Origin: a virus
Strand: one strand, 5' to 3'
IMG/VR virus record: IMGVR_UViG_3300025168_013869
Span: 1-63,378 of that record
Length of the DNA: 63,378 bases
The translations under genes were made by a program, and so were the position numbers. Below are positions 14,703-42,360 of the stretch, one piece after another (position 1 is the first letter of the stretch; every line of letters begins with the position of its first letter). The notes beneath the pieces are model-generated. The model searched no databases, was not told where the DNA came from, and saw only the letters and a list, made by a program, of their open reading frames with translations.

Positions 14703-14945
14703 TTACTGAGTTCTGACTTGTAGCTTTTTTATCTGATCTAAAAATTCTTCTACTGTATACTTCTTTCCTGTATCATCTAGTAGAATAATATGTTCTAACA
14801 CGTCAGGAGCTTCTTTAATTATCTTTTGTAAACTTTCAAAACCCGTTCCTGCCCAGAAAACTTTGAAAGAGCTTTCTCCTAATAAATATCTCTCATTTAT
14901 TAGATCCTGTTGTTTATATCCTAATGGTAATATAAAGTATTGCAT
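14703..14945 (-). CDS. Hypothetical small protein at end of glycan cluster
   Basis: 80 residues, soluble, mixed alpha/beta, no family recognised. Its start abuts the stop of the dehydrogenase gene upstream, so it is the last gene of the glycan transcription unit. Confidence 0.6.
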   Translation of the reverse strand: MQYFILPLGYKQQDLINERYLLGESSFKVFWAGTGFESLQKIIKEAPDVLEHIILLDDTGKKYTVEEFLDQIKKLQVRTQ

Positions 14946-17930: not shown

Positions 17931-18541
17931 TTTTTCCTTTTTAATGCTACTATAGTTTGTAATGTATCTTGTACAGAATCAATAACATCATAATACTCTG
18001 TTATGACTTGGTATGGTGGACGCTTCCAATAATCATGTATAAATACAATTGAATCATCATCTATATAATTAAGTATCTTAAATGCACAATCAGCTCGGGC
18101 CCTTCCATCTATTAGTACAAAATCATATATCTTAGTTTTTAATTTATCTACCCAATCTATATATTCATGAAATACAAATCTATTTTTTGGATAGATGCAA
18201 TAATCTAAATCTGGAATGCTATTAGTTGTTAATTTGGATAACTCATGAATTTCCGTTTCCCATTTATCATAGAAAGCTTTTTTAGCAGTTGGAACTTCTT
18301 TTGATATATCTACTAAATTAAAATCTATATTACTAAGGCCGGATTCTTTAATTGTATCCTGTACATTAATGTACCAATCTAAATTATGTTCTATACTTAC
18401 ATAATGATTTACTTCTTTAGAAAATATTAATGTACTTCCACCACAACCCCATTCTAACATTGTAGAGTCTGGCTTCTGTTGTATATACTTTAGTATTAAT
18501 TCCTTTTCTTTTGGGTCCATCCAAAGATTTATATCTGACAT
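17927..18541 (-). CDS. SAM-dependent methyltransferase-like protein
   Basis: 204 residues, class I methyltransferase fold: motif I MLEWGCGGSTLIFS (about 28-41), motif II acidic residue in YVSIEHN, and FVLIDGRARADCAF as the post-I strand. Likely methylates a sugar in the glycan made by this cluster; substrate unknown. Confidence 0.7.
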   Translation of the reverse strand: MSDINLWMDPKEKELILKYIQQKPDSTMLEWGCGGSTLIFSKEVNHYVSIEHNLDWYINVQDTIKESGLSNIDFNLVDISKEVPTAKKAFYDKWETEIHELSKLTTNSIPDLDYCIYPKNRFVFHEYIDWVDKLKTKIYDFVLIDGRARADCAFKILNYIDDDSIVFIHDYWKRPPYQVITEYYDVIDSVQDTLQTIVALKRKK

Positions 18542-18542
18542 A

Positions 18543-19445
18543 TTATTCTTTATCTAATTTAAACTTACTCTCATGATAATATTCCTTATAATTTTTTCGC
18601 GCTTCATTACTACAATATAAATAAAATTCTTCATCTTTCCTAAGCATTTTTGCTATTTGTTTTGCTTTTGTTAAATCTCCTACATCTACTGTACATGCAG
18701 GGTGGCATATCATTTGAGTATCCAATCCTTCATACCCAATACATGGAATTCCTAAATATGCACAATTAAGAGCAAATGTTCCTGCTGCATGAGTTCTCAT
18801 TAAATGAACTCCATATTTTCTTTTACTTAATTCTACTATCCAATTAGTCCAATTCAAATATGATAAATGAGTTAAATTTTCCATTTGCTCTTCACCTTCT
18901 ATTTTTCTACCCATACTTGGTACTGTTACATCTGTACCAAATTCTTGTGCTACCATATATGAATCAAATCCACCATACCAATGACAGAAATTTCCACCCA
19001 TCATTACTCCTTCTCGTAGTACATATGTATTACTGATAGTATCTTCTATCATTAGACTTGATAATACTTTACATTCTTTGCCTGTAAGTCCGTGGTAGTA
19101 CTTTTTATCTATTTCATTATGTACATATAGAAAATCCATATCTTGTAATGTATTATAATACCATATTTGTAGATCTAATGGATAGTCTTGGAAATACCAA
19201 TGAGGTCCTTCTTGCATTGATGCTACCTGCTTACAATGTTTACGAATTCTTTCAACATTAAATTGAGGATTCTTTTTAGGTATAATACATACTGCTAGAT
19301 CATATTCACCTTGAATATCACCTCCGTGTATATTATAATGATCTGCTTCAAGTGTGCACATCCAGGCCATTTCAGTTCTCATATTTGGATTATCTCTTGA
19401 GACTTTACCTGTCCAATTACCTTCTGTAAAAAATGCTATTTTCAT
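18543..19445 (-). CDS. GT-B-like glycosyltransferase
   Basis: 300 residues. The N-terminal half resembles a Rossmann-like acceptor domain (KIAFFTEGNWTGKVS). The C-terminal half ends with a nucleotide-sugar-type stretch, THAAGTFALNCAYLGIPCIGYEGLDT, as in GT-B enzymes where small residues and Glu/Asp line the donor pocket. Shorter than usual for GT4 (350-400 residues). 4-nt overlap with the deacetylase gene downstream. Confidence 0.65.
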   Translation of the reverse strand: MKIAFFTEGNWTGKVSRDNPNMRTEMAWMCTLEADHYNIHGGDIQGEYDLAVCIIPKKNPQFNVERIRKHCKQVASMQEGPHWYFQDYPLDLQIWYYNTLQDMDFLYVHNEIDKKYYHGLTGKECKVLSSLMIEDTISNTYVLREGVMMGGNFCHWYGGFDSYMVAQEFGTDVTVPSMGRKIEGEEQMENLTHLSYLNWTNWIVELSKRKYGVHLMRTHAAGTFALNCAYLGIPCIGYEGLDTQMICHPACTVDVGDLTKAKQIAKMLRKDEEFYLYCSNEARKNYKEYYHESKFKLDKE

Positions 19446-20113
19446 AATTGTCCTAATGTTTTAAATTGTATATCCTGTTGTGATAAATGATCTAGTGATA
19501 CTCTTAGTTGTTGATAGTTAGTTTCATTCCATACATTATCATTATGGTCACCTGCTATATGTGATTGAAACATTATATTTCCATCATGTATTGATATATC
19601 TGTTTCATGTATTCCATCTGCACCAAAAATCATTTTACAATCCCATTGTAAATTATGATTATGTTCGTAATGTACAGCTGCATATTTGAAAATTGGACCT
19701 AACCATTTAATTGCCTCTGGATGTGCTAACCAGCCTGGATTCCTCCAACCTACAGGTATATGATCTACATCACTCCATTCTTCCATCATTTGCCAAATTC
19801 TAGATTTTGCTTTATCTGCAGTATCTATTTCATAGAACTCACATTCTCCTATATCCTTTCTATCACACATATGATAATGTCCATGTGCCGCTAATTCAAA
19901 ATATTCTTTTGACTTTAACCAGTCAATCCATTCCTGATGGTCTGAGATAGGAAACTTGTTATGGTAATTAGATGGAATGAATAATGTAAACTTAGCTCCA
20001 AACTCTCTATTAAGTTCTTCCAAATAACCCATACAGTCATCACCTTCCATTCCCCACCCTTTCTCTGGATGGATATCATCTATGGATATTGTTATATTAG
20101 TTTTGGCTTGCAT
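19442..20113 (-). CDS. Polysaccharide deacetylase-like protein
   Basis: 223 residues. ISIDDIHPEKG near residue 10 carries the paired Asp of NodB-type (CE4 or related DUF2334) enzymes. AAHGHYHMCD near 85 is the His-x-x-x-His metal site, WRNPGWL the Arg-Pro motif and FQSHIAG the last His motif. It would remove acetyl groups from an amino sugar. No signal peptide, so it acts in the cytoplasm on a precursor. Confidence 0.75.
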   Translation of the reverse strand: MQAKTNITISIDDIHPEKGWGMEGDDCMGYLEELNREFGAKFTLFIPSNYHNKFPISDHQEWIDWLKSKEYFELAAHGHYHMCDRKDIGECEFYEIDTADKAKSRIWQMMEEWSDVDHIPVGWRNPGWLAHPEAIKWLGPIFKYAAVHYEHNHNLQWDCKMIFGADGIHETDISIHDGNIMFQSHIAGDHNDNVWNETNYQQLRVSLDHLSQQDIQFKTLGQL

Positions 20114-20450
20114 GATTTTGTTTAGTCTCTATAAAGCCTTCTTTATATAAAGTTGTAATTTCATTTTTACATGCTACACGTTCATTATTAATATTACGAA
20201 TCAATAATGCCCTACGACCGACTTCCTCAAGTCCTAATTCTTTTTCTTTTCCTCTACGTATATCAGATTCTAAATCCCATATTCTCCCATTAATTACTTT
20301 TAGGTTTTCTACCCAAATATTAATACCAATGTATGGTGCTATTGCTGATTTATAATCATCTACTTCTTGAGTAATTTCTAAATCTGTACGTTCTAATTTT
20401 AATAATAGAATTGAATATCTATCTGCTATTTCTCCAATTTGCATTTTCAT
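20097..20450 (-). CDS. Small helical protein of glycan clusters (DUF6165-like)
   Basis: 117 residues, mostly helical. The N-terminal pattern QIGEIADRYSILLLKLERT recalls DUF6165-type proteins found beside glycosyltransferases; I hold this loosely. Function unknown, perhaps a scaffold. Overlaps its neighbours by 17 and 4 nt. Confidence 0.6.
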   Translation of the reverse strand: MKMQIGEIADRYSILLLKLERTDLEITQEVDDYKSAIAPYIGINIWVENLKVINGRIWDLESDIRRGKEKELGLEEVGRRALLIRNINNERVACKNEITTLYKEGFIETKQNHASQN

Positions 20451-21460
20451 AATTTATTTATCTCTTTTTGATGGTCTTCAAATGTTAAAAACTTATCTTG
20501 GTTTACTCTTAATTTACTTAAATTTGACTTGGACATGTTTGATATCAGTTTCCACCAATCACCTTTTCCATGATCACAATCACCACGTGGGTTGTCTTCA
20601 TCTTTTATATATAATCTCTTTTGTGGATGTCGTCTATTATGTACTCTTAGGATATTTTTAATGACAAATTGTATATATTTATCTCCCATCATAAATTCAG
20701 CCATGTCTGCAAAACTAGTATCTTCTCCACATACTAATAATGCATGCGGAATATTAACACCTGCTTTAATTAAATCTGTTGATATAACTAAACATGATCC
20801 ATCAAATTTTGGTTTGTTCAATATCCTAATATCTAATTCATCTGCCTTATCATTAATCTCATTCATTTGTTCTAATGACATATATGATTTAGGACTCTCA
20901 GGTGCATTAAGATTCCATTCTTTTGTATCAATGAATGGCTTATCTGTCATATCAACATGTTCTAAAGGTTTCCAATCAGCTCCCCACATCTTTCTATACG
21001 CAAATGTTACAACATATCTGTTTATCTTATTTGATCTTGCATGATCATCGATCATTTCAATTGATGAAAATGTTTCTTTTGGCCATAGACTATCCGTCTC
21101 TCCCCATAATACAAAATCACATTCATCACAGTAATTATAATTCAAATCTCTTCTGTATGCTGCGATATTATAAATCTTATCATCATTAGTTTTAATATCT
21201 AAATCAACTGGACATCCTATATCTGATAATCGTTTTATTTGTTTATTGAATCTAGATTCTAATTCTTCTATAGTTATTTTTTCTGTATCTATTCTTTCAA
21301 AAAATTCTGATTTATTAAAACAGAAATGGAATGTAACATTTTCTTTATTCTTAACTATCTCTAATGCCTGAATACAACTATCTATATATTCTGATACCAT
21401 CTCTATTTCATAGAACTGCACCAATACTCCTATTGTATATTTATTTTTTATATCTATCAT
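20447..21460 (-). CDS. GT-A-like glycosyltransferase
   Basis: 337 residues. N-terminal strand YTIGVLVQFYEIEMVSEYI, then AYRRDLNYNYCDECDFVLW followed by GETDSLWP, an ETDS acidic motif that fits the DxD metal site of GT-A enzymes. The C-terminal part holds a VHNRRHPQ motif that may bind phosphate. Donor and acceptor unknown. Confidence 0.65.
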   Translation of the reverse strand: MIDIKNKYTIGVLVQFYEIEMVSEYIDSCIQALEIVKNKENVTFHFCFNKSEFFERIDTEKITIEELESRFNKQIKRLSDIGCPVDLDIKTNDDKIYNIAAYRRDLNYNYCDECDFVLWGETDSLWPKETFSSIEMIDDHARSNKINRYVVTFAYRKMWGADWKPLEHVDMTDKPFIDTKEWNLNAPESPKSYMSLEQMNEINDKADELDIRILNKPKFDGSCLVISTDLIKAGVNIPHALLVCGEDTSFADMAEFMMGDKYIQFVIKNILRVHNRRHPQKRLYIKDEDNPRGDCDHGKGDWWKLISNMSKSNLSKLRVNQDKFLTFEDHQKEINKL

Positions 21461-21463
21461 AAT

Positions 21464-22072
21464 TTATTTCCTTAAAAACATTATTGACTCTGCTTGAGTT
21501 GTTTTATATGTGTTAATTATATTCTTATTATGTCCGGTTTTCACTAACCGTTCATTTAATTCATCTATAAATAGTTCATGGATGTCTTCTATAATATAAA
21601 TTCCTCCTTCCTTTAATTTTGGCCAGAAATTCTCAATAGTTGGTTGCCATGCATTTGGTCTATGACATCCATCATCAATTATAAAATCAAAGTCTGGATA
21701 TGAATGTATACGTTTATCCCAGGTATCTATTTCATCAGATGCTCCTTGACAGACTAACTTTAGATTTTTGTTTGCAAATGCTCCTAATTTCTCTAATTCA
21801 GGCTTCATTAATTCAAATTCCTTTATTGATAAATCAACTCCATATAGTTCTCCATTAACAAAATAATCTGAGAACGTTGCTAATTTACGTCCTTGGAATA
21901 CTCCAATTTCTAATAATCTAATATTAGATGTTCTCCAAGCCTGAAAGTACTTATCATATAATGTTGTATAACCATGTTGATTCATATCACCTCCTGAATT
22001 AGTAAATCCAGTACCCCTATTAAGAGCTGATTTGTACTTATAATGACTGCTAATTTCTGTTAATGTTTTCAT
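21464..22072 (-). CDS. Class I methyltransferase (CmcI/TylF-like)
   Basis: 202 residues from the ATG at 22072; a longer frame starting at 22135 would overlap the upstream gene by 86 nt and adds a poorly conserved end. Motif I is RLLEIGVFQGRKL; then GVDLSI, and FDFIIDDGCHRPN, the metal/acceptor Asp-Asp-Gly motif of the small-molecule O-methyltransferases of sugar and antibiotic pathways. Likely methylates a sugar in this cluster. Confidence 0.75.
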   Translation of the reverse strand: MKTLTEISSHYKYKSALNRGTGFTNSGGDMNQHGYTTLYDKYFQAWRTSNIRLLEIGVFQGRKLATFSDYFVNGELYGVDLSIKEFELMKPELEKLGAFANKNLKLVCQGASDEIDTWDKRIHSYPDFDFIIDDGCHRPNAWQPTIENFWPKLKEGGIYIIEDIHELFIDELNERLVKTGHNKNIINTYKTTQAESIMFLRK

Positions 22073-22811
22073 ATAATTCTTTATAAGTTTTTTCCATCCA
22101 ATTGTATGTCGATGAATCTCCTCCAGGTATTGCATTGAATTGATATATTCCAGGTATCTTTATATACCTCATGTCATCCGATAACAATCCATGTCGTGGC
22201 AAATCCACCATACAATAAATATATGGTAATTGTTTACATTCAATTTGCTTCATATGAACATAATGATTTAATAATGGTTGGTCTGTTCCTACACCATATT
22301 TTTGTTGTACTGCATTAATCTTATCTTTATTTTTCCAGAAAAATTCCATGAAGTCCTTAAAGAATTCTTTATGTTGTTTATTGATAATTAAAAATCCTGA
22401 ATTGAAATATGACCATATATCAAACTTATTGAATTCATCAAACTCGTGAGCATAATTTTCCATGCTTCTGATAGTCCAATCATAATCGCCATCACAATGA
22501 GTTACATATAATTTATCATCTGTTAGTTCAAAAAAGTTAGGACAATCTGGATGTATTATACTATCTACATCTGTTATACAAACTTTATCGTATTCAATAC
22601 CAGACTGTTCCAATAATTCTAAAGCATAATATCTAGAAAAATTGACTTTCATTTCATCTGGTTGAGCTATTAACTCATCAAGTATGAATAATTCTACATT
22701 GTTCTTCTTACACCAATGTCTATAACTATCTATTCCATATCTATAAGGTGCCGACCTAGATTCTTTACCAGGCACTGTTATTGCAACTAGAAATAATACG
22801 TTCTTTTTCAT
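22050..22811 (-). CDS. GT8-like glycosyltransferase, copy A
   Basis: 253 residues. VCITDVDSIIHPDCPNFFEL holds the DxD motif (DVD); FNSGFLIINK is the family-8 style NxG strand. It pairs with the paralogue immediately upstream (22811-23557), which has the same layout. Probably transfers a sugar from a nucleotide donor to the growing glycan. Confidence 0.72.
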   Translation of the reverse strand: MKKNVLFLVAITVPGKESRSAPYRYGIDSYRHWCKKNNVELFILDELIAQPDEMKVNFSRYYALELLEQSGIEYDKVCITDVDSIIHPDCPNFFELTDDKLYVTHCDGDYDWTIRSMENYAHEFDEFNKFDIWSYFNSGFLIINKQHKEFFKDFMEFFWKNKDKINAVQQKYGVGTDQPLLNHYVHMKQIECKQLPYIYCMVDLPRHGLLSDDMRYIKIPGIYQFNAIPGGDSSTYNWMEKTYKELYENINRN

Positions 22812-23557
22812 TAATACTTGTCTTTATATTGTGTCCATGTCTGTTCCATAAGCCTTTTACGATCTTCTACAGGAAATCCAGTAAAGTGCCATACATTAGC
22901 ATATTTTACAAAATATGGATCTGTATCTATATTGAGTTGCCAATTATGAGTAAACATATTTCTTCTATGTATAGATAAAAGATTCCAGGCTGGTGTTAGG
23001 AATTTCTTTTTTACATTATTTTTTACTAGTATGTAATTTAATATTGTCTGTTCACGGCCACCTCCTTTATTCCAATTATCAAGCTCTTCTTGATTATCTA
23101 GATATAAATCTAAAACTTGCTTAAACACATCTAGATATTTATTATGAAAGAATAATACTCCTGCGTTCATATATTTCATTAAATCAATTTCTGTTCCTGG
23201 AAAGAACTTTTTATATTGTGATATACTATTCATCAACCAAGAGAAATCTGCAATATCATTTACTCCACAAAACTCATCTTCAAATGTTTCGAATATATTT
23301 GGTGCGTTCCATTTGACCATAGTATCTGAATCTACTACTCCAATTTTCTCATACTCTTTTCCTATTTCATATATAAGTTCTTTATTCCAAATTGGTCTAC
23401 CAAATCTACTATCATGGTCTGTATTAACTATTATATCAATATCATATTTTTTACACCATGCTGTCCATGATGCAATACAATATTTAGAATAATCGCTACA
23501 TTTGTTTTCTGAAGTATTATGATCAATAGATACTATATATATTAGATTCTTTTTCAT
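22811..23557 (-). CDS. GT8-like glycosyltransferase, copy B
   Basis: 248 residues. IGVVDSDTMVKWNAPNIFE holds the DxD motif (DSD), then MNAGVLFFHNK and, near the C-terminus, NVWHFTGFP, which could be the HxxGxxKP-like nucleotide motif of family 8. Paralogue of the downstream gene; shared start MKKN and the same spacing of motifs. Start abuts it without a gap. Confidence 0.72.
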   Translation of the reverse strand: MKKNLIYIVSIDHNTSENKCSDYSKYCIASWTAWCKKYDIDIIVNTDHDSRFGRPIWNKELIYEIGKEYEKIGVVDSDTMVKWNAPNIFETFEDEFCGVNDIADFSWLMNSISQYKKFFPGTEIDLMKYMNAGVLFFHNKYLDVFKQVLDLYLDNQEELDNWNKGGGREQTILNYILVKNNVKKKFLTPAWNLLSIHRRNMFTHNWQLNIDTDPYFVKYANVWHFTGFPVEDRKRLMEQTWTQYKDKY

Positions 23558-24177
23558 ATTTTATCTAGATCCGGTGTATAATCAACATCTAATTTTTCTC
23601 CTATATAATAAAATCCAGTCTTATTATTATATAATAACCCGTTAAGAAATTGATGTTCAGAGGCCTTTGCCATTATCAAGTAATGTGATGTCTTAAAACA
23701 TTTTGGATAATCTTGTCTTCTATAGAAATCATGACTATTAATAATAGACGAATAAATTCCTTCTTCATGTAGACAAAGATATGGATGAGTTTTTACATCT
23801 TCTTTACATAATGCAGATGTTAAATTATGTTTATAATAAAATTCTTTAAATTTTAATATCTCATCTAATGTTCTTCCTGGGTATGTTGGGTATAATGTTA
23901 GTATGTCTGCGGCAGGATCTAGTTCTAAATCTTGTATTACATTTAGAATTACTGATCTCATACTAGCAGTATCTGAAGAATACTTGGTTGGTCGGTCATG
24001 GACTGTTATACCATATCGTTCTCCATATTTTTGTAAGATTGGATCATCGCTTGATAAAATTACATTATCTAATAAGTTAAATTTATCAAGTTTTCTTAAT
24101 AATTGAGGTACTAATTTACGATTCTTAAATGGTGCGCCTTTAGAGCCTAATCTTGCTGGTATTAATATATATTGCAT
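23554..24177 (-). CDS. CMP-sugar synthetase (NeuA-like cytidylyltransferase)
   Basis: 207 residues. The N-terminal nucleotide loop IPARLGSKGAPFKNRKL (residues 5-21) and VILSSDDPILQKYGERYG are the CTP-binding hallmarks of the NeuA/KdsB/PseF family; DILTLYPTYPGR continues the fold. Family role: activates a nonulosonic acid as its CMP form. With the NeuB homologue at 26466-27935 and the GT29-like protein at 27990-28769 it completes a make-activate-transfer route. The overlap with the radical SAM gene suggests coupling. Confidence 0.85.
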   Translation of the reverse strand: MQYILIPARLGSKGAPFKNRKLVPQLLRKLDKFNLLDNVILSSDDPILQKYGERYGITVHDRPTKYSSDTASMRSVILNVIQDLELDPAADILTLYPTYPGRTLDEILKFKEFYYKHNLTSALCKEDVKTHPYLCLHEEGIYSSIINSHDFYRRQDYPKCFKTSHYLIMAKASEHQFLNGLLYNNKTGFYYIGEKLDVDYTPDLDKI

Positions 24178-25859
24178 TACATTTCTAATATTTTTTCAAT
24201 CTCATCATTATCTATATGTTCCCTTGCTTGTAAGAACTCTTCCATACTCATTGATCCAAAATTAACTGGATTCCCATCTCTATCATTTAGTATCTTTGTT
24301 GCATCATCTAATTCTAATACATACCTATGGAAGTTATCATCACATATAGGATTACCAAATTTATCATGACTTAAACCAAAATGTTTTTCCAAGTTAGGTC
24401 GTACCACTCTCCACATTTCTGTACCTGGATATGCTGTAGCTGTAAACATTCTTCTATTTACTCCGTCTCTAAGTCTTTCATAATCTGGTGATCCAGGCTC
24501 ATGTCCATCTGTCCAGAATTGTTGTTGCCAAATTATAAATGCAACACTAGTTTTTAAGTGTTCTAATTCTTCTCCTGGATATGCCATTATCCAAGTACAA
24601 TTAGCATGTATTCCTGCTTTAGCGCAATTTCTAATAGCAGTCATCATTGTTTTAGGAAAATTATATATTTTACCGTTTACCTCTGTAGGTACTAGTCCGT
24701 TTCTTAATATGAACCCACCTTTTTGCATTAAAGTAAGAACATGATCAGATGCAGATTCTGCTCCAAATCCTATATAGATGCAACCCGCGGCCGCCATTGA
24801 AAATGCTCTGTCGTCAGCTTCATCCATCCTTGTATGGGTTCCCCATTTTACATGATCTATACCATACTCCTTAAACACTGGAACCATGTTTAATATTCTT
24901 TTTTTCTGTACAGCAAAATTATCATCTGGAAATGCTATGAAATCTAAATTATACTTATCAACATATTCTCTGATTTGAATAGCTATAGCTTCTGTGCTCC
25001 TTACTCCGTAATTTCTTTCTCCTGTTGAACCTCTATAACAAAACGCACAGGAATAAGGACAGCCTCTACTACTAACAGTTGATAAACTTCGTTTCATAGT
25101 AAATGGAGTTGCTGAACTATTATTTGCAGCTGTACCCCATATTGATGCATTAATATAATCTTCTAATACATTATGGCCATATGGATCACATTCTAATAAA
25201 TCATATGCTGGGTTTGGGATATCATCTAAGTTTGCAGGCCTACTTCCTTCATATACACATCTATTCTTTCCTTCAATTTCTCCAACAAAAAAAGGACTTA
25301 ATTTACCAGAAGAAATAGCCTTAGGCCATCCTAATTCTTTAATTAGTTTCCCGTCCTTACATATATCAAATATGATTCCATCACCTTCAGATCTTGCTAT
25401 TGCGTCAAGTCCTGGAATCCATGTAAATAAACCTCTTTTAATTTCTGTTGCTAATCCATTTCCAGATACTAAAAAACAATCTGGTTGTAACTTTTTTATT
25501 ATCTTTGCTGTATCTTCTTGCCATTGCAAAGTTGTTATTTTTCCAGAGAATGCAAATATATCTTGTTCACCAACATTATCTAAATGTTTTGCAATTAAAT
25601 CTTCGGCCTCTTTAAGAGTTAAATGTCTACCATTCGATAAATTTCGATCGGCTGCAAGGTCATCTTTTATTCTATATGCATTTAAGTCTATAACATGAGG
25701 TTCTCCACCATACTTCCTAATTATAGCAGATAAGATACATGGACCTTCTGGAGGGAAATTAGGTGTCGCAGATTCTCTTAAAGGCATATTAACAAATGTA
25801 ATTTTGATGTCTTTTAACTCGTCATATGAAATATCAGTAAATTGTATATGTTTTTTCAT
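24177..25859 (-). CDS. B12-binding-type radical SAM enzyme
   Basis: 560 residues. The N-terminal 200 residues look like a cobalamin-binding domain, with an early ITFVNMPL strand, VIDLNAYR and VSGNGLATE. The radical SAM core carries SRGCPYSCAFCYRG (Cys at about 265, 269, 272) for the [4Fe-4S] cluster. Enzymes of this type methylate unactivated carbons or remodel sugars. Lying between cytidylyltransferase and methyltransferase genes, it probably alters a sugar precursor. It would need host cobalamin, as the phage NrdJ also does. Confidence 0.85.
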   Translation of the reverse strand: MKKHIQFTDISYDELKDIKITFVNMPLRESATPNFPPEGPCILSAIIRKYGGEPHVIDLNAYRIKDDLAADRNLSNGRHLTLKEAEDLIAKHLDNVGEQDIFAFSGKITTLQWQEDTAKIIKKLQPDCFLVSGNGLATEIKRGLFTWIPGLDAIARSEGDGIIFDICKDGKLIKELGWPKAISSGKLSPFFVGEIEGKNRCVYEGSRPANLDDIPNPAYDLLECDPYGHNVLEDYINASIWGTAANNSSATPFTMKRSLSTVSSRGCPYSCAFCYRGSTGERNYGVRSTEAIAIQIREYVDKYNLDFIAFPDDNFAVQKKRILNMVPVFKEYGIDHVKWGTHTRMDEADDRAFSMAAAGCIYIGFGAESASDHVLTLMQKGGFILRNGLVPTEVNGKIYNFPKTMMTAIRNCAKAGIHANCTWIMAYPGEELEHLKTSVAFIIWQQQFWTDGHEPGSPDYERLRDGVNRRMFTATAYPGTEMWRVVRPNLEKHFGLSHDKFGNPICDDNFHRYVLELDDATKILNDRDGNPVNFGSMSMEEFLQAREHIDNDEIEKILEM

Positions 25860-26458
25860 TTTAATGCTTTTTTACATTTATAATATCCTTGGTCTTTCGT
25901 TTCGCCATCTGTAAATGTTGTTTCGATAAAATACGAGTCTTGAATTTCGAACCCAGTTTTATTTAATAATTCTGTAAAGTCTTTGTTTGAATATTCTAAA
26001 CTATGAAATTTATTACTAGGATTGTAATTAGTTTCTGGTACTATTGGTGTTGTAATTACAAAGTCTCCATCTTTTTTTAATAATGTATTTAATGTTGTTA
26101 AGAATTCAATTCCTTTATTAGATGGCATATGTTCTATTGTCTCTATAGATAAAATTACATTAAATTGTTGATCTTTAATAGTTGAAAGGTCGTTTACAAA
26201 TGTACAATCAGGTGTTTTATATATTTTTTGTGCATACTTGATAGCATCTTTATTTATATCATATCCAATAACATGCTTTGTAAAGTTTGAAAGTAAATTT
26301 GTACCATACCCACAACCACAAGCACAATCTAACCATAACTCATTCGGGCCTAATTTCTTTAAAATTTTTATACATTCAGAATATCGTTCAAAGTGTCTTA
26401 AAGATGGATCAAAATCCATTTCAAATTTCTTTGGAAAAAAGGTTTCAATAGCTTTCAT
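25856..26458 (-). CDS. Class I SAM-dependent methyltransferase
   Basis: 200 residues, UbiE/Methyltransf_11 type. Motif I LWLDCACGCGYGTNLL (Cys in place of the usual Gly at one spot), HVIGYDINKDAIKYA for ribose binding, and ILSIETIEHMPSNKG. Substrate unknown, presumably a sugar intermediate. Overlaps the radical SAM gene by 4 nt. Confidence 0.8.
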   Translation of the reverse strand: MKAIETFFPKKFEMDFDPSLRHFERYSECIKILKKLGPNELWLDCACGCGYGTNLLSNFTKHVIGYDINKDAIKYAQKIYKTPDCTFVNDLSTIKDQQFNVILSIETIEHMPSNKGIEFLTTLNTLLKKDGDFVITTPIVPETNYNPSNKFHSLEYSNKDFTELLNKTGFEIQDSYFIETTFTDGETKDQGYYKCKKALK

Positions 26459-26465
26459 ATCTATA

Positions 26466-27935
26466 TTATTTTATTAAGTCGATTTTTATTTTTCTATCAT
26501 CCAACTCTAATTTATTAATCTTTGGGTTTTGATATATAGAATCACCTGGTATATGAGTTGTAGAGACTTCTTCTACTACACATCCTCCTTTGCTACTAAA
26601 TGAATGATCAACTTTAGTATTAATTAATTTTGGTGCACCTAATTTAAGATCAATTACTCTCCCATTTAATACTAATTCACAATCACCATATAGTAATTCA
26701 AATGATTCTTCTTTGATCATATGCCGATGAGTAGGATGAGATTGGCCTGGTAACATTACTATAATCTTTTTACAATATCGTCTATTAATTTTAGATATAA
26801 TAACAGCTCCAATATTAATAAACTCATCTAATCCATAATGACATGAAATATCAACATCATCCTTTTCTGTTATTGTTACATTTGCTGCATGTAATATATC
26901 ACTAACTTGAGATTTTATTTTATGAATAATAGATTGCTTCTTAACATCTACTATGTCAGAATATTTTAATCCTTCGTTAGATTTCAAATCTCGAGTTAAC
27001 TCTGATCCAATAATATCATAATACGATGATGCATTTAACATACCTTCTTGCACCGGCATTGCGTAATAAATATCATTATCAGTTATGGTATGTCCTTTAT
27101 AAATATCATTTCTTAAATATACTCCCCTCTTAAGAGCAACTAAAGCTTTCTTTTCATTTTTAGATTTTCCTTGTGATGCTTGGAATAATTGATCTACTTC
27201 TTTTATAACCGTTTCCATTTGGTCTGGTGTTAATGAATAATCATTTAATGCAATATCATTAGTTTTTACTCCTATATGCTTTTCAATGATTGTACATCCC
27301 ATTGCAATTGCATATGGCGTCATTGATTTTTCTAATGGAGATTCATGAGTAGAAAATCCAATTTCTATATCAGGAAATTCTCGTTTCATATCTTTAATTC
27401 TATCTAAATTTGAAACGTTTATTGGAGTTGGATATTCTCCTACACAATGCATGAAAGCAAAATCTCTTCCCTTTTTCTTAAATAAATTATAAACACGTCT
27501 TACTGTATTTAACTCGACGCCAGCCGTTGAAATTATTATTTTTTTATTAATATTCGATAATTCTTCTAGTAATGGCCAATCATCAACAGAACAACTTGCT
27601 ACTTTTAGAACATCAATATTCAATTCATTTGTTAATGGGATTGACTCATTATCGAACGGAGTAGTAATAGCTAATAATCCTTTAGATTTAATATAATCTA
27701 CAATTTCCTTGAACTCAGATTTATCTAATCGAGTTTCATTAAATCGTTTAACATATTTCAGGTCACTACGAGTCTGATATTCTGGATGTATAAATGTATC
27801 TAGGTTACGGAATTGTAACTTAATACCAGCTGTTAGATTATTATCCTTAGATAATATAGCAAATTCATCTACTATTTTTTTTGCGTGATCAACACTTCCC
27901 ATATGGTTATTAGCCATTTCAAATATATATAACAT
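26466..27935 (-). CDS. NeuB-family nonulosonic acid synthase fused to a cupin
   Basis: 489 residues. About 1-260 is the NeuB TIM barrel: YIFEMANNHMGSVDHA, KVASCSVDDWPLLEEL, IISTAGVE, MHCVGEYPTP and EKHIGVK. About 270-345 is the SAF (antifreeze-like) domain: RGVYLRNDIYKGHTIT. About 370-475 is a cupin: MLPGQSHPTHRHMIKEESFE supplies metal His/Glu. NeuB enzymes join phosphoenolpyruvate to an N-acetylated hexosamine to give sialic, legionaminic or pseudaminic acid; which one is not readable here. The added cupin is unusual for the family and may isomerise or bind the sugar. First gene after promoter 27956-27987. Confidence 0.88.
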   Translation of the reverse strand: MLYIFEMANNHMGSVDHAKKIVDEFAILSKDNNLTAGIKLQFRNLDTFIHPEYQTRSDLKYVKRFNETRLDKSEFKEIVDYIKSKGLLAITTPFDNESIPLTNELNIDVLKVASCSVDDWPLLEELSNINKKIIISTAGVELNTVRRVYNLFKKKGRDFAFMHCVGEYPTPINVSNLDRIKDMKREFPDIEIGFSTHESPLEKSMTPYAIAMGCTIIEKHIGVKTNDIALNDYSLTPDQMETVIKEVDQLFQASQGKSKNEKKALVALKRGVYLRNDIYKGHTITDNDIYYAMPVQEGMLNASSYYDIIGSELTRDLKSNEGLKYSDIVDVKKQSIIHKIKSQVSDILHAANVTITEKDDVDISCHYGLDEFINIGAVIISKINRRYCKKIIVMLPGQSHPTHRHMIKEESFELLYGDCELVLNGRVIDLKLGAPKLINTKVDHSFSSKGGCVVEEVSTTHIPGDSIYQNPKINKLELDDRKIKIDLIK

Positions 27936-27955
27936 AATTCTTTTTTTTATTTATA

Positions 27956-27987
27956 TAAATATAACAAATTTTTCTCGGATATCCTAG
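27956..27987 (-). promoter_or_regulatory. Promoter-like element upstream of the NeuB fusion
   Basis: Minus strand CTAGGATAT, exactly 14 nt, then TTATATTTATAT. One of the clearest copies; it divides the glycan cluster into two transcription units. Confidence 0.7.
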
Positions 27988-27989
27988 TA

Positions 27990-28769
27990 CTAATAACTCT
28001 TTATTCTTCCAATTGATTCTAAATATGCAATGGATTGTTCTTCAGCTGCAAAATTATGTAGTTCCAGTCCGGGTGAATATACCTGTTCAAAATAATGTAA
28101 ATTTTGGGTGGTATCTGCATTTTTATAAAAATCAAAACCAAATATATTAACTGATTTAAAGAATGATAAGAATAAATGTATTCCAAAAAATCCTGCACTA
28201 GGTTCAGTAGCTGATAAATTTTCTAGTATTGTTTTCTGAACTGATGGTTGTACTATACTTATTTTATTTGATCCATTAATGTTATTAATTAAACCACCAA
28301 CTAAATATCTAGATGATAAGTTCATATCAGATTTTAATATAAAATGTTCATCTTTAAGTGTTGGTATAAAATTAGAATCAAAACTTGTTAACTGATTACA
28401 TTCTTTATATCCAAAAACTTTTGCTGATATTACTCTGAAGTTTGTTTTTGTGCCGACCTGTATTTCATATCCTTTTGTCTGGCTATGATTGAATCGTACT
28501 ATTATATCATGTGCATCAATAAAATTACCATATTGATTTTCTAACACGGTTGGAGCATTTCCAACTATTGCACAGGTTTTGTCAGAAAAATTATAATTAA
28601 ATTTATCATCAATTATATTATTTGATAATAATAATATTTCATCTAAACTATAATCATCTTTATTTACGCCAAACTCTTTATCAAAATATGAACTTCCAAT
28701 GGAATGTTCATGTTTAATCATATCCTGATAGTCATGTTTTGAAATGAATATATCTTCTTTAAGCTTCAT
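27990..28769 (-). CDS. GT29-like sialyltransferase
   Basis: 259 residues. All four sialyltransferase motifs appear in order: L (66-95, CAIVGNAPTVLENQYGNFID and on through HDIIVRFN), S (190-212, PSAGFFGIHLF then VNIFGFDFY), motif III (HYFE, 225-228) and VS (HNFAAE, 238-243, His-x4-Glu). GT29 enzymes use CMP-sialic acid and are best known from eukaryotes, with scattered bacterial and viral members. Together with NeuB and NeuA homologues one transcription unit away, it predicts transfer of a nonulosonic acid. No signal peptide or membrane anchor, unlike Golgi enzymes. Confidence 0.85.
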   Translation of the reverse strand: MKLKEDIFISKHDYQDMIKHEHSIGSSYFDKEFGVNKDDYSLDEILLLSNNIIDDKFNYNFSDKTCAIVGNAPTVLENQYGNFIDAHDIIVRFNHSQTKGYEIQVGTKTNFRVISAKVFGYKECNQLTSFDSNFIPTLKDEHFILKSDMNLSSRYLVGGLINNINGSNKISIVQPSVQKTILENLSATEPSAGFFGIHLFLSFFKSVNIFGFDFYKNADTTQNLHYFEQVYSPGLELHNFAAEEQSIAYLESIGRIKSY

Positions 28770-29703
28770 AAAGATCTTCTATTTGTAATGGACCATCATT
28801 GATATGCATATTAAATAAAGCTTTTTGTATAGTATTATCATACTTATCTATTACAGATTGAAACTCATTTCTTAAATTTTTATTTCTATAACCCCAGCCC
28901 CATCCATATTTTTTCCTCCAGTTCATTTGATGATCTTGAGAATTAGTATCACCAAAATAATGAGGGTTATATGTCTGTGAGTCTGGTACTCCTGCTGCAT
29001 GTTTTAAGCTTATATGATGTTTAACTATTAAATCCGTGAAACCTATATTACAAATATTATTAAACATAAATTGGTGTGCGACATCATCACCCCAGAGGTT
29101 CAAATTATAATCTGTATCGATATTGATACATGTCTTAAATAGATTAATATTAATACCAGTTGCTATATAATTTGTTGATTCGACTACACAATAATCTTTC
29201 TTTAAATAACTATCTGGTACATTTTGATACCAACTTGAATATGGAGGTTCAAGTATACCTTTAATTAAATTTCCTCTTCCTAATCTATTAGATGTATCTA
29301 CATCATTGAATCCAAACATTCCAACGACTTGTTTGAAATTTTCATGTTCTATAAGTTTGTCATCTAATTTTTTCCAAAAGTCTTCAGTTACAGGATATGC
29401 ATCATGCTGGAACACTATTAGCCAATCAATATCTGTATCAGTATTATCTAGAAATTTAATAGCTTCATCTACACAGTTCTGCATTGGTAATGTATCTCGA
29501 TCGGTTTCTATATTTGTAATATTAAATTTTTTACAAATCTCTTTACCATATTTCACTTGTTCATCTGTAGATTGTACATCTATATTTAAGAATAAAACAT
29601 CTTCTACAGATTTTACATCTACCTTTTTATAGAATAATTCCTCGAATAAGATATAATTATTTCTACTTGCAAATAAAACGGCATACTTCTTTTTATATTT
29701 CAT
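28759..29703 (-). CDS. GT-A-like glycosyltransferase
   Basis: 314 residues. YAVLFASRNNYILFEELF start, then LIVFQHDAYPVTEDFWKKL where HDA is the likely acidic metal motif, and a downstream NLWGDDVAHQFMF stretch of acceptor-type residues. Overlaps the sialyltransferase gene by 11 nt. Confidence 0.7.
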   Translation of the reverse strand: MKYKKKYAVLFASRNNYILFEELFYKKVDVKSVEDVLFLNIDVQSTDEQVKYGKEICKKFNITNIETDRDTLPMQNCVDEAIKFLDNTDTDIDWLIVFQHDAYPVTEDFWKKLDDKLIEHENFKQVVGMFGFNDVDTSNRLGRGNLIKGILEPPYSSWYQNVPDSYLKKDYCVVESTNYIATGININLFKTCINIDTDYNLNLWGDDVAHQFMFNNICNIGFTDLIVKHHISLKHAAGVPDSQTYNPHYFGDTNSQDHQMNWRKKYGWGWGYRNKNLRNEFQSVIDKYDNTIQKALFNMHINDGPLQIEDLYEA

Positions 29704-29707
29704 ATTA

Positions 29708-30694
29708 TTACTTAATTTTATTTATACTATAAACTTCTAACCAATGATCACACATTTCATGCATCATAGATTCAAATGTATATTCTGGTTTCCATCCTAG
29801 TTCTGTTTTTATTTTAGTCGGATCTCCTTTAAGGTATGGTAACTCCTCTGGTCTTAAGAACTTTGGGTTTTGAGTGACATATTCTTTATAATCTAGTCCT
29901 AGATACTTAAATACTAAATCACACATTTCTCTAACCGAATGAGTTTTTCCTGTAGCTACTACCCAATCACCTGGTTCATCTTGTTGCATCATTAAGTGCA
30001 TTGCTCTAACATAATCTTTAGAATGGCCCCAATCTCTATATGAATCTATATTACCTAGTTCAAGTTTGTCTTGAAGACCTAACTTGATTCTTACAGCTGC
30101 CTTAACTACTTTATTAGTTACAAAATTACTTCCCCTCCTAGGCGACTCATGATTAAATAAAATTCCATTAACTGCATGTAGTTTATAAGCTCTTCTATAA
30201 TTTCTTACTATATTATACCCAAATACTTTTGAACAACCATATGGTGATACTGGATTCATTGGTGTTGTTTCTTTCTGGGAGTTATTTGATTCTATTGATA
30301 ACCCAAACATTTCAGATGAACTTGCTTGATAAAATTTTGCTTTTGGGCATGCTCTTCTATATGCTTCTAATACATTGAGTACACCCATTGCATTTGTTTG
30401 AACTGTAAATTGTGGAATATCAAAACTAATTCTTACATGGCTTTGGGCTGCTATGTTATATATCTCATCAGGTTGTATTTTATCTAATAACCTTTCTATA
30501 CCACCTTGATCTAATAAGTCGCCATAATATGTATGAACCATATCTTCCAAATGGGATATTCTACTGTCTTGTGTCTCTGCTGTAGAATGTCGTCTGACTA
30601 TTCCGTGCACTTCATATCCTAAGTTTAATAAGTATTCTGCTAAATAACTTCCATCTTGGCCTCCTATTCCTGTAATAAATGCTTTCTTTTTCAT
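29708..30694 (-). CDS. gmd: GDP-mannose 4,6-dehydratase
   Basis: 328 residues, extended SDR. FITGIGGQDGSYLAEYLL is the Gmd-specific cofactor loop; GIVRRHSTAETQ, the catalytic AQSHVRISFD and SSSEMFG, then YGCSKVFGY (Tyr-x-x-x-Lys), and NHESPRRG are all typical. It makes GDP-4-keto-6-deoxymannose, precursor of fucose, rhamnose or perosamine. With the aminotransferase gene directly downstream (30697-31335), perosamine is a reasonable guess. Confidence 0.92.
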   Translation of the reverse strand: MKKKAFITGIGGQDGSYLAEYLLNLGYEVHGIVRRHSTAETQDSRISHLEDMVHTYYGDLLDQGGIERLLDKIQPDEIYNIAAQSHVRISFDIPQFTVQTNAMGVLNVLEAYRRACPKAKFYQASSSEMFGLSIESNNSQKETTPMNPVSPYGCSKVFGYNIVRNYRRAYKLHAVNGILFNHESPRRGSNFVTNKVVKAAVRIKLGLQDKLELGNIDSYRDWGHSKDYVRAMHLMMQQDEPGDWVVATGKTHSVREMCDLVFKYLGLDYKEYVTQNPKFLRPEELPYLKGDPTKIKTELGWKPEYTFESMMHEMCDHWLEVYSINKIK

Positions 30695-30696
30695 AA

Positions 30697-31335
30697 TTAT
30701 CTTGTTTGTAAATATATATCTACTTCATTTTTTTTATTGAATATTCTCATCTTTGATACATCTGGCCAATCATCTATTGACCATTGCCTTGGAGTTGTTT
30801 TTATTGCATCATCTAATTTATTTAGGCCTTGTTGTGCAGTTTCTGGTGTCATATAATAATGATATCCCATGGAACTAATGTCCTGATCTCCCCATGGAGA
30901 ATCTGGTGATCTACCATCGTATGACATTCGTTTAAGTTCGATTGCTGCATCTTTATTATCTGTTAATATAATACCTCCCCTACCCAGACTTAGGTGTTTC
31001 CTGAATTGAAAACTTATACACATAAATGATCTAGGAATATAACTATCCTCCTTCCATAGTATTGCAGCATCTATTATCGGATCAAAGCCTTCATGATTAG
31101 TTAGATAATAATAGTCTTTCCATTTTTCATCTGTCCATTTTAATTGAATACCTAATTTTTTAGAAAGAAATGGAACTGAGATATATGTATGCCTAGGAAC
31201 GTTAATATAACTAAAGTTTTGGTATCTTAAACATAATTCCAATCCATGTGTACAACAATCTACTGCAACTGCAAAAGGCGCACCAAAGAATTCTGCTATT
31301 TTATTCTCAAATGTTTTAATTACTTCAAAACTCAT
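30697..31335 (-). CDS. Shortened DegT/DnrJ-type sugar aminotransferase
   Basis: 212 residues against 360-400 for the family. CISFQFRKHLSLGRGGIILTD carries the internal aldimine Lys in the usual SF-x-x-x-K-x-L context. The N-terminal cofactor strand FAVAVDCCTHGLELCLRYQ is present, but the C-terminal small domain is reduced to a remnant. Likely uses PLP to put an amino group on the 4-keto sugar from Gmd. The shortening may mean altered dimer contacts or loss of activity. Confidence 0.78.
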   Translation of the reverse strand: MSFEVIKTFENKIAEFFGAPFAVAVDCCTHGLELCLRYQNFSYINVPRHTYISVPFLSKKLGIQLKWTDEKWKDYYYLTNHEGFDPIIDAAILWKEDSYIPRSFMCISFQFRKHLSLGRGGIILTDNKDAAIELKRMSYDGRSPDSPWGDQDISSMGYHYYMTPETAQQGLNKLDDAIKTTPRQWSIDDWPDVSKMRIFNKKNEVDIYLQTR

Positions 31336-31736
31336 ATTATTATATTATCAACTCTAAATGTATCTGATTCATAATCTTTGCCTCCTCTTTTCCCTTGTGA
31401 GAATACTACAAACTCATTACCTTCAGGTCCAATTCTTAATGCATGTATCTCATTAGGACCAGTCGAAACTAAATCTCCTTTGGTTGCTACAACCATCTTT
31501 GCTTTCTCATTTGAATTTACTGGCTTGTACCAGTATTCTAATGAACCTCTAGTCATTAGCATATGTTGAGTAGTTTCTTTATGATAATGATTTCCTCTAA
31601 TTGCGTTTGGTTCTGATATAACAGTTGCTACATGATTTATATCTTCTGCGTAAAATAAATCTACTATAGTACCTCTATCATCTATATGCATTTCTAATGG
31701 TTCTTCTACGTCTTTCCAAATATTTTTTATTTTCAT
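31332..31736 (-). CDS. Cupin sugar epimerase/isomerase-like protein
   Basis: 134 residues, one cupin barrel: DDRGTIVDLFYAEDINHVA, IRGNHYHKETTQHMLM (metal His), GSLEYWYKP, and ISTGPNEIHAL-like closing strand (VSTGPNEIHALR). Resembles the 3,4-ketoisomerase/3,5-epimerase group (FdtA/RmlC-like) that works on dTDP- or GDP-keto sugars. 4-nt overlap with the aminotransferase gene. Confidence 0.75.
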   Translation of the reverse strand: MKIKNIWKDVEEPLEMHIDDRGTIVDLFYAEDINHVATVISEPNAIRGNHYHKETTQHMLMTRGSLEYWYKPVNSNEKAKMVVATKGDLVSTGPNEIHALRIGPEGNEFVVFSQGKRGGKDYESDTFRVDNIII

Positions 31737-31740
31737 TATG

Positions 31741-32901
31741 TTATATTGTTAAAAATGTTATGTTTGCTTTACTAATTTTTTGTAGTTTTTCTTTTAATAA
31801 ATCTGATATATTCCATGAAAGTATTATTGCATATACTTCATCGTACTTTTCAAATACAGTTTTATCATCAAGTATAGGTATTCTAGTTAAAGGTGTATAT
31901 TTTCCAATTTTATACTCAGAAACATCAGTTACATAATCTAAAACAGTATTATCTATGTTATAGAAATTTAGAAATGTATTACCTTTGGCAGCTGCTCCTA
32001 TACCTACTATAGGTTTACCTGTTTTTGAAATTGCATACAATTTTTCTAGAAAGAGTGCTCTTGATTTTTTAATATCTTTCATAAATCTATCATACCGCTC
32101 TTGTGTAAATAGTCCTTCCTTTTCCTCTTGGTGTATAAACCTATTCACAGCTTCAGAAATAGAACATTTTCCTTTCTTAGCAAAAACTCTAATTGAACCA
32201 CCATGATAATCTACCCATTGTACATCATATACTGTTAGTCCAGCCTTTGCTAATAATTTTACTGCTGCTTTAACTGTAAAGTAACTAACATGTTCATGAT
32301 ATATTTGATCAAATCTTTTATCAACTATTGTATTATACCAATAAGGAACTTCAAATACAAATGTTCCTTTGTTTGATAATACTCTTTCTACATCTTTTGC
32401 AAATTCTAATGGATCATTTGCATGATTGAATACATTATTAGCTACTACTAAATCGTAACTATCAGATGACAGTGCATCATAACTAAATAAACCGCATATA
32501 GTATCTATACCTCTTTCATTTGCTATGTCACACATTTTTCTTGATGGATCAATTCCTAATACAGAATGACCTTGATCTTTAAATTGCTTAGAAAGATATC
32601 CATCATTAGATCCTATTTCAAGTACCTTACCAATTGTTTCCCAGAATACATTATTAGTTACAGATGTAGCAAATGAATCCCAATGTTCTCTAGATACTTT
32701 AGAATTAGCAGATGTATATGAATAATCATATAAATTATATCTTTGGTCTGCACTTGTTTCATATACTAATTTAACTAAACCTGATTCTTGATCTAATTTA
32801 CATTGTAATGGGTAAACTGGTTCTGGTAAGTTAAGTTGGGCTTCAGATACAAATGTGTCTGCAAATGGATGCATTCCTAAATCTATTATTATGTCTTTCA
32901 T
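31741..32901 (-). CDS. Sugar C-methyltransferase (NovU/TylC3-like)
   Basis: 386 residues. N-terminal GMHPFADTF and PLQCKLDQESGLVKL recall the zinc-binding domain of the family, though most Cys ligands are gone. The SAM core has VLEIGSNDGYLSKQF and GIDPSRKMC. A C-terminal domain with VGIGAAAKGNTFLNF and LDYVTDVSEYKIGKYTPL is diagnostic of deoxysugar C-methyltransferases. It would add a branch methyl to a keto-deoxy sugar. Confidence 0.82.
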   Translation of the reverse strand: MKDIIIDLGMHPFADTFVSEAQLNLPEPVYPLQCKLDQESGLVKLVYETSADQRYNLYDYSYTSANSKVSREHWDSFATSVTNNVFWETIGKVLEIGSNDGYLSKQFKDQGHSVLGIDPSRKMCDIANERGIDTICGLFSYDALSSDSYDLVVANNVFNHANDPLEFAKDVERVLSNKGTFVFEVPYWYNTIVDKRFDQIYHEHVSYFTVKAAVKLLAKAGLTVYDVQWVDYHGGSIRVFAKKGKCSISEAVNRFIHQEEKEGLFTQERYDRFMKDIKKSRALFLEKLYAISKTGKPIVGIGAAAKGNTFLNFYNIDNTVLDYVTDVSEYKIGKYTPLTRIPILDDKTVFEKYDEVYAIILSWNISDLLKEKLQKISKANITFLTI

Positions 32902-33308
32902 TATATCTTTTCTTTATCTATATCTATACCAAAATATGGACCTGTTTTAAATTCATAGAATATAGTATCTTCTTCTACTACCTCTAATGAATGTCCACCT
33001 CTATATAATACAATACAATCACCATCAGTTAAAATAGACTCATATAGTATACTATTATCTAAATCATAAAAGATTCCTTTAACCTTTCCGTTCAATATTA
33101 TCCAAGCTTCTTGAGTTATATTAGTAGTTCTATCTATTTGTAAATGTTTATGTGCAGGTACTATAGTTCCTAATTTTAATTTTCTACCAGATACTTGTAA
33201 AAATTCTTCGTCCGGACTTAAATCTGTTCTATACTCTGATATCTCATGAAACCTTAGTTCTGATAGTATCAATTTTGTTGGATCTATTTTTGAGTATATT
33301 TTCTTCAT
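32901..33308 (-). CDS. WbuC-like cupin protein
   Basis: 135 residues. Single cupin: GTIVPAHKHLQIDRTTNITQ supplies His ligands, then AWIILNGKVKGIFYD and CIVLYRGGHSLEVVEED. Such cupins often sit in O-antigen clusters without a known reaction. Start abuts the methyltransferase gene. Confidence 0.7.
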   Translation of the reverse strand: MKKIYSKIDPTKLILSELRFHEISEYRTDLSPDEEFLQVSGRKLKLGTIVPAHKHLQIDRTTNITQEAWIILNGKVKGIFYDLDNSILYESILTDGDCIVLYRGGHSLEVVEEDTIFYEFKTGPYFGIDIDKEKI

Positions 33309-33309
33309 A

Positions 33310-34035
33310 TTAAGCTATCTTATGTTTATTAAATATATCTAAAAGTTCTCGTGATAACAAGTCTTTTCCTAAAAAGTTATTAATATCTTTTGGTTCATCA
33401 GGTTTGAAGGCTCCTACATATATTGGCTTATTAGCTGAATTATATCTCATATCAAATTGAGTACAACCTACATTAAATTGGTTATTCAATAATGTAAATC
33501 TACGTTGTATATCTGGATATAGATTATAAACCATATTTACTATATTCTCATCACCTTTATTATCAACTGCGGGATGTGTTCTATTTTCTTTCATAAACTT
33601 GATAATTAATTCCCATATATCAACACTTGATGGTTTCACAAAAATTGATCCTGTATTCCATTGTTCTGCATTAATATATCTACACATTCCTATATCTGCA
33701 CCAAATGCTGGAAATTCAAATTTCTGTAGTGGCCAATCATCAAAATCATGAAACCAGAACGGTTCGGTGATTAATCCTTTATCTAATAATTCCCAAATAC
33801 CAAATTGTTTATTGAAATACTTATTAAATTTACATTCATGTTCTAATCTGATTATTGTAACATCTTTATATTCGAAATCTAAATTTGTACATATTACAAT
33901 GTCTTCAGCTTTCCAACCTAACTGTAAACTATTATCAATCTGTGCTCTGAAATAATTAAATAACTCTTCTTGTTGCCATTGGTGTCCATAAGTTACATCA
34001 TTAACAAAGTCTTGAAATATAACTACATTCTTCAT
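33310..34035 (-). CDS. GT-A-like glycosyltransferase
   Basis: 241 residues. FWFHDFDDWPLQKFEFP contains the DxD (DFDD) expected in GT-A enzymes; QWNTGSIFVKPS forms the acceptor-side strand. Overlaps the next GT gene by 4 nt. Confidence 0.68.
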   Translation of the reverse strand: MKNVVIFQDFVNDVTYGHQWQQEELFNYFRAQIDNSLQLGWKAEDIVICTNLDFEYKDVTIIRLEHECKFNKYFNKQFGIWELLDKGLITEPFWFHDFDDWPLQKFEFPAFGADIGMCRYINAEQWNTGSIFVKPSSVDIWELIIKFMKENRTHPAVDNKGDENIVNMVYNLYPDIQRRFTLLNNQFNVGCTQFDMRYNSANKPIYVGAFKPDEPKDINNFLGKDLLSRELLDIFNKHKIA

Positions 34036-34658: not shown

Positions 34659-34659
34659 A

Positions 34660-40704: not shown

Positions 40705-42360
<1,656 letters not shown>

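Follow-up and report, generated by a model that had tools for sequence, protein, structure and literature searches.

The closest described systems to the one reported here are glycosyltransferases of family GT29 from animals, bacteria and viruses of eukaryotes. Petit et al. (2018) described 23 bacterial GT29 sequences, mostly alphaproteobacterial, and a bacterial origin was proposed (PMC5811610); members have also been annotated in algal, herpes and pox viruses (PMC5371807). A database listing of viral GT29 holds herpes, pox and mimivirus members together with one uncultured Caudovirales entry. In this work we analysed a linear IMG/VR virus record of 63,378 bases (IMGVR_UViG_3300025168_013869, hereafter the window), in which a GT29-family gene accompanies genes for a NeuB-family synthase and for a cytidylyltransferase that would activate ulosonic acids as cytidine monophosphate (CMP) sugars. 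The family is known already from bacteria and eukaryotic viruses, and the statement in the preliminary description of this DNA that GT29 is chiefly eukaryotic needs qualifying (PMC5811610; PMC5371807). As far as we searched, a phage GT29 with a donor module is undescribed, and a literature search, covering papers outside subscription, found none on phage GT29 with donor genes. We consider it probable, at about 0.77, that a T4-like phage encodes here a CMP-ulosonate transfer module, which would make, activate and attach the sugar.

By sequence profile and predicted structure, the window protein is a true GT29 protein. It scored 88.3 bits against Pfam PF00777 (7.6e-25, cut-off 23), and its best PDB match by phmmer was porcine ST3Gal1 (6e-11), the nearest solved proteins by sequence being mammalian sialyltransferases. 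The AlphaFold2 (AF2) model (predicted local distance difference test, pLDDT, 87; predicted template modelling score 0.89) has the GT-A variant 2 fold of ST3Gal1 and ST8SiaIII, and for this predicted model all 30 Foldseek matches in the PDB at E<=1e-3 were GT29 enzymes, the next match standing at 0.05. A chance match or a GT42 relative is ruled out by these matches and by a profile built from 36 phage relatives, which found ST3Gal1 at 5e-35 and the Campylobacter GT42 enzyme CstII far behind at 1.5e-6; this distant similarity notwithstanding, CstII is absent from the 30 structural matches and the phage sequence is clearly nearer GT29. All four sialylmotifs can be read, namely L (CAIVGNAP...IVRFN...VGTKTNFRV), S (PSAGFF...NIFGFDF), III (HYFE, with H225 and Y226 conserved) and VS (H238...E243), and among the aligned viral relatives H238 is kept in 75/75 and E243 in 96%. 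The preliminary description had recognised the four motifs and had made its assignment depend on a GT29-like fold, and the predicted fold is of that kind.

With the animal enzymes ST3Gal1, ST6GalNAc2 and ST8SiaIII the phage protein shares the fold, the four sialylmotifs and the catalytic histidine of motif VS, but at about 20-25% identity. Unlike them, it is predicted to be cytosolic, with no transmembrane segment or hydrophobic anchor by hydropathy and no cysteine in motif S, so that both the N-terminal membrane anchor and the L-S disulfide pair of the animal type are missing, and it has donor genes alongside. Lack of anchor and cysteines marks a subgroup and not the family, since the bacterial GT29 have neither transmembrane segment nor disulfide cysteines; those sequences, however, come from cellular genomes, and phages are unmentioned in the paper (PMC5811610). 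The GT29 of E. huxleyi virus, Chelonid herpesvirus 5, squirrelpox virus and ChoanoV1 mimivirus are virus-encoded and similar in fold, but these viruses infect eukaryotes. We know of none among them with a NeuB, CMP-synthetase and GT29 module. Glycosyltransferase islands of pelagimyophages and cyanomyophages also belong to T4-like aquatic phages and place glycan genes in a hypervariable region, but they hold mainly GT8 and deoxy-sugar genes, and sialyl or sialic is unmentioned in the text (PMC7029224).

The two donor genes could likewise be assigned. The synthase matched PF03102 at 144.7 bits and the SAF domain (PF08666) at 28.4 bits, both over cut-off, and residues K39, H197, H220 and R270, which comprise the metal histidines and substrate residues of the NeuB family, were invariant in 22/22 relatives. 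Its best PDB match was 3g8r (8e-74), an SpsE-like synthase, with synthases of N-acetylneuraminic acid (Neu5Ac) at about 3e-22. The cytidylyltransferase scored 30.8 bits against CTP_transf_3 (cut-off 22.6), matched the CMP-Neu5Ac synthetase 6ifd best among PDB entries (6.7e-12 over residues 5-206), and carries the ARxGSKG..KN signature of CMP-sialate synthetases as ARLGSKGAPFKN. Thus the three open reading frames of the preliminary description, all on the minus strand, retain the identities proposed for them (Table 1).

Membership of the T4-like phages is supported by a T4-type replication set in the window, comprising DNA polymerase, UvsX, DnaB-like helicase, exonuclease, ligase, ribonucleotide reductase and a clamp-loader type AAA protein; the polymerase matched phrog_262 at 635 bits and shares 43% identity with its counterpart in Microcystis phage Mel-JY01. 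The main window genes all lie on the minus strand. The late-promoter motif TATAAATA occurred at chance level in the window (23 vs 23.1 expected). The major capsid gene product of T4, gp23, is encoded on 6 of the 36 contigs tested, and on one of them (G002, the same as L021) it accompanies GT29, cytidylyltransferase, NeuB-cupin and HAD genes in a row. Bacterial contamination of the contig is ruled out by the replication genes together with gp23 on module-bearing relatives.

Profile searches of IMG/VR, together with one 484-kb phage record, gave 83 GT29 loci, 59 of them non-redundant. A cytidylyltransferase gene lies within 10 kb of GT29 in 36 of these 59 contigs, accompanied by NeuB in 27, and the gap between GT29 and cytidylyltransferase is below 60 nucleotides in 18. 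Direct abutment of the two genes was seen in 17 loci, whereas random open reading frames drawn from the same loci gave an expectation of 3.0 (maximum 9 in 1000 draws, relatedness ignored). GT29 with donor genes is a widespread phage module, found in dozens of environmental phages. The 484-kb record holds five GT29 genes, one NeuB and one cytidylyltransferase gene, and 4 to 7 GT29 genes per virus contig, partly in tandem, were seen in LR756508.1 (L010:12946-30846), L107, L047 and L058, which hints at ulosonate capping in several steps or at a diversified range of acceptors. A single-sequence GT29 search of viral contigs gave false positives only, L002-L008, which match through the string NIFGFDFY in a different, major-capsid-like protein of about 318 residues; these seven phage loci later served as controls and gave no match to any of the three module profiles. 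Two contig scans and two plasmid searches found no bacterial GT29, with scan patterns so strict that absence is not shown.

An indication of the donor comes from exchange of the synthase. Among the 36 loci with a cytidylyltransferase, 26 have NeuB only, 6 have only KdsA (Kdo-8-phosphate synthase, Kdo being 3-deoxy-D-manno-octulosonic acid), one has both and three have neither (Fisher p = 2.8e-4, relatedness ignored), so that KdsA is found in 6 of the 9 loci without NeuB. Five of these six have an aldolase like dihydrodipicolinate synthase (DHDPS), and the KdsA of L012 passes NF003543 (267 bits vs 242). The combination of GT29, CMP-synthetase, KdsA and DHDPS/NanA-like aldolase was seen in L012, L026, L029, L099 and L100, often preceded by a small HAD protein. 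Sequences linked to NeuB and sequences linked to KdsA are intermingled in the GT29 tree, with five changes, at least three of them forced by branches with support >=95 in the Shimodaira-Hasegawa-like approximate likelihood ratio test. A lineage that keeps transferase and CMP-synthetase while exchanging the ulosonate synthase is what would be expected if the GT29 donor were a CMP-ulosonate, and this ties the phage GT29 to such a donor. Because KdsA replaces NeuB in related clusters, the donor could alternatively be an octulosonic acid. A parallel to the KdsA loci is the plant GT29 RCKT1/MGP2, which acts on pectin in the Golgi; it was identified by genetics, from which a role as CMP-Kdo transferase has been proposed (PMC11288761). 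Although it differs in setting, it would join the GT29 fold to a non-sialic ulosonate donor, so that GT29 plausibly uses either sugar class. The preliminary description had asked for a phylogeny with bacterial, viral and eukaryotic members; ours holds the latter two groups, and two eukaryotic GT29 fall weakly inside the phage set. We claim no origin, since this placement is weak and the tree is unrooted and lacks bacterial members.

The data show that the proteins belong to these families, with matching predicted folds and conserved catalytic residues, that their genes are recurrently linked, and that NeuB and KdsA replace each other; chemistry, sugar and acceptor are inferred from this as follows. 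Phosphoenolpyruvate and an aldose would be condensed by NeuB, giving an octulosonic or nonulosonic acid that the cytidylyltransferase would charge to a CMP-sugar. The cytosolic GT29 would then transfer the sugar, by an inverting mechanism with histidine as base, onto the end of a glycan built by neighbouring phage glycosyltransferases and other enzymes. Most probably the sugar resembles sialic acid, although it need not be classical Neu5Ac, and is attached to a virion protein or to a surface glycan of the infected host.

Several observations weigh against this module. Epimerase_2 (PF02350, the NeuC/LegG-type hydrolysing UDP-N-acetylglucosamine 2-epimerase) has no match in the whole record; NeuB falls under the specific NCBIfam equivalog cut-offs (NeuB_NnaB 153.7 vs 399.65 bits, PseI 141.3 vs 340.25), as does the cytidylyltransferase for PseF (39.4 vs 205.7); the three genes lie within 5.3 kb but are not all adjacent; both the Fisher and the random-frame test treat related loci as independent; and 23/59 GT29 contigs show no cytidylyltransferase gene in the stored stretch, partly because contigs are short. 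Given those 23 contigs, some phage GT29 may use a host CMP-sugar or another donor. The pairing of GT29 with donor genes in a phage, as claimed in the preliminary description, therefore stands and recurs in many phages, whereas its "complete" nonulosonic acid route does not, because the first committed, NeuC-type epimerase step is absent from the record and the equivalog cut-offs are missed.

How NeuB would obtain its substrate can be read in two ways. In the classical route, it would take N-acetylmannosamine (ManNAc) or a 2,4-diacetamido-hexose from the host and make Neu5Ac, legionaminic or pseudaminic acid. The NeuB_NnaB and PseI scores themselves, and an Epimerase_2 gene of their own beside NeuB and cytidylyltransferase in four other GT29 loci, agree with this, but the distance of those scores from their cut-offs and the far closer match to 3g8r than to Neu5Ac synthases leave it tentative, short of even odds. 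The other reading starts from the C-terminal part of the window NeuB, which forms a separate domain in the AF2 model (pLDDT 94). Its top Foldseek matches are D-lyxose isomerases (2y0o, 1.7e-11, root-mean-square deviation 1.8; 7nzp/7nzq), two of them with fructose or mannose bound, and its sequence profile finds 2y0o at 4.8e-18. The active-site residues H75, H77, K86, E88 and H143 of the Thermofilum enzyme TsLI (PMC8378251) correspond to H403, H405, K408, E410 and H444, so that in this predicted cupin fold all metal ligands (H403, H405, E410, H444) and the lysine are present in the window protein. Across 22 relatives, H405, K408, E410 and H444 are invariant. The fused cupin could, judging from residues and model, supply a 2-hydroxy aldose without NeuC, by isomerizing a ketose (fructose to mannose, xylulose to lyxose) and feeding the fused synthase; this would explain the missing epimerase, and Epimerase_2 is absent from four contigs related to the window as well. 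Since an aldose-ketose isomerase requires a free C2 hydroxyl, an active cupin would point to mannose, leading to the nononic acid Kdn, or to a pentose, leading to an octulosonic acid, and not to ManNAc. Synthesis of Kdn has been reported in B. thetaiotaomicron and, from mannose-6-phosphate, in the haptophyte Prymnesium parvum (PMC6200933). Nevertheless, H403 is glutamine in 9/22 relatives, so that the cupin may only bind sugar; the Pfam Lyx_isomer score lies slightly under its gathering cut-off (19.8 vs 20.8 bits), for which reason we label the domain only isomerase-like; ManNAc or another substrate may come from the host; and most other phage GT29 loci use NeuB without cupin. We therefore regard self-supply of a Kdn- or octulosonate-type sugar as possible, though on the unlikely side. 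A plasmid search with NeuB gave 0 of 87 records matching at least 80% of the query, the listed matches ending before the cupin part, and a text search found no paper on NeuB combined with a D-lyxose-isomerase-like cupin.

The acceptor can be weighed as well. Instead of decorating the virion, the transferred sugar may end on lipopolysaccharide or capsule of the host and there mask receptors or block superinfection. In line with this, marine T4-like pelagimyophages have glycosyltransferases in their host-recognition region, and modification of the O-chain has been proposed for them (PMC7029224). However, hydropathy predicted no transmembrane segment in any protein of the glycan cluster, so that the cluster would supply neither a flippase nor a polymerase nor an initiating transferase, and delivery would depend wholly on host export machinery. 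Such a cluster speaks rather for an acceptor in the cytosol, plausibly a virion protein; the host might still export an envelope glycan, but its surface as sole destination appears somewhat doubtful. That the cluster modifies phage DNA and not protein or envelope glycan is very improbable: its proteins are all predicted to be cytosolic and a weak match to Nmad1 (DUF1599, nucleotide modification associated) lies at 39868-40260, next to a PD-(D/E)XK nuclease (38897-39832), but the match is slightly under cut-off and we know of no DNA modification that uses CMP-ulosonates.

Table 1. Predicted features of the window around the GT29 gene.
Feature	Positions	Strand	Size and basis
Glycan cluster: sugar dehydrogenase/epimerase, several GT-type proteins, methyltransferases, radical SAM enzyme, ulosonate module	14945..37972	-	family matches, hydropathy
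CMP-ulosonate (NeuA/PseF-type) cytidylyltransferase	23554..24177	-	207 residues; CTP_transf_3, 6ifd, conserved neighbour of phage GT29
NeuB-family ulosonic acid synthase: NeuB barrel, SAF and C-terminal D-lyxose/D-mannose-isomerase-like cupin	26466..27935	-	489 residues; PF03102, SAF, PDB 3g8r
C-terminal cupin of the NeuB protein, residues 335-489, D-lyxose isomerase fold	26466..26933	-	AF2, Foldseek, profile, ligand comparison
GT29-family (sialyltransferase-type) glycosyltransferase	27990..28769	-	259 residues; PF00777, AF2 and Foldseek, H238/E243 conservation, hydropathy
Unassigned protein whose gene shares 11 nucleotides with the GT29 start; possibly a glycosyltransferase	28759..29703	-	no Pfam match above threshold; related proteins in 5 GT29 loci
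GDP-mannose 4,6-dehydratase-like enzyme	29708..30694	-	PF16363 403.9 bits; TIGR01472 404.6 vs cut-off 415
Short DegT-type sugar aminotransferase	30697..31335	-	PF01041 50.9 bits
Cupin sugar-modifying protein (Polysacc_synt_C / FdtA-like)	31332..31736	-	PF14667 37.7 bits
C-methyltransferase, deoxysugar type	31741..32901	-	PF08484 132.3 bits
Small HAD-type (EcbF/BcbF-like) phosphatase candidate	38209..38502	-	97 residues; BLAST cluster, adjacency

The genes of the cluster, at about 14.9-38 kb, are tightly packed. The dehydratase-like enzyme possibly supplies a sugar for the same glycan. The DegT aminotransferase has 212 residues against about 360 in its family and keeps the lysine-containing stretch SFQFRKHLSLGRGG, with relatives in 17 GT29 loci, and a radical SAM protein of 560 residues (24177-25859) directly abuts the CMP-synthetase gene. 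The small HAD-like family occurs in 24/59 GT29 loci, 14 of which have it directly beside module genes; since KdsA yields a phosphorylated product, it may provide a phosphatase step. The window copy has no Pfam or NCBIfam match, and a relative (L084:11420-11716) scored 35.5 bits against TIGR01689, under the cut-off.

Outside the cluster, the window encodes a GroEL-type chaperonin of 550 residues (40705-42357; phrog_5725, 572 bits) and a protein of 1133 residues (3940-7341) with a C-terminal Por_Secre_tail domain (3949-4143; 46 bits, cut-off 27). The same domain was found on the closest relative contig (G001:79282-79482), whose NeuB is 76% identical. Por_Secre_tail is a sorting domain of type IX secretion, which is a trait of Bacteroidota. 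Its presence in both contigs gives a weak hint that the phage host may be a member of the Bacteroidota, whose type IX secretion system may then serve the phage.

The most far-reaching reading of these data is a self-contained three-gene route in T4-like phages, in which the isomerase-fused NeuB would make a Kdn/octulosonate-type sugar from an abundant ketose, the CMP-synthetase would activate it and the cytosolic GT29 would cap virion glycans with it. Phage GT29 genes of this kind, after repeated exchange of their donor between NeuB and KdsA, would also be an extensive reservoir near the point from which eukaryotic sialyltransferases arose; in this full form the reading is quite improbable. 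If the CMP-ulosonate transfer module itself is confirmed, bacteriophages would be a major overlooked holder of the GT29 family, with donor synthesis genes attached, which would bear on the source of eukaryotic sialyltransferases. It would also offer small, soluble, disulfide-free GT29 enzymes for which easy expression in E. coli is expected, and it would lead one to expect sialic-like sugars that some aquatic phages either bear or attach.

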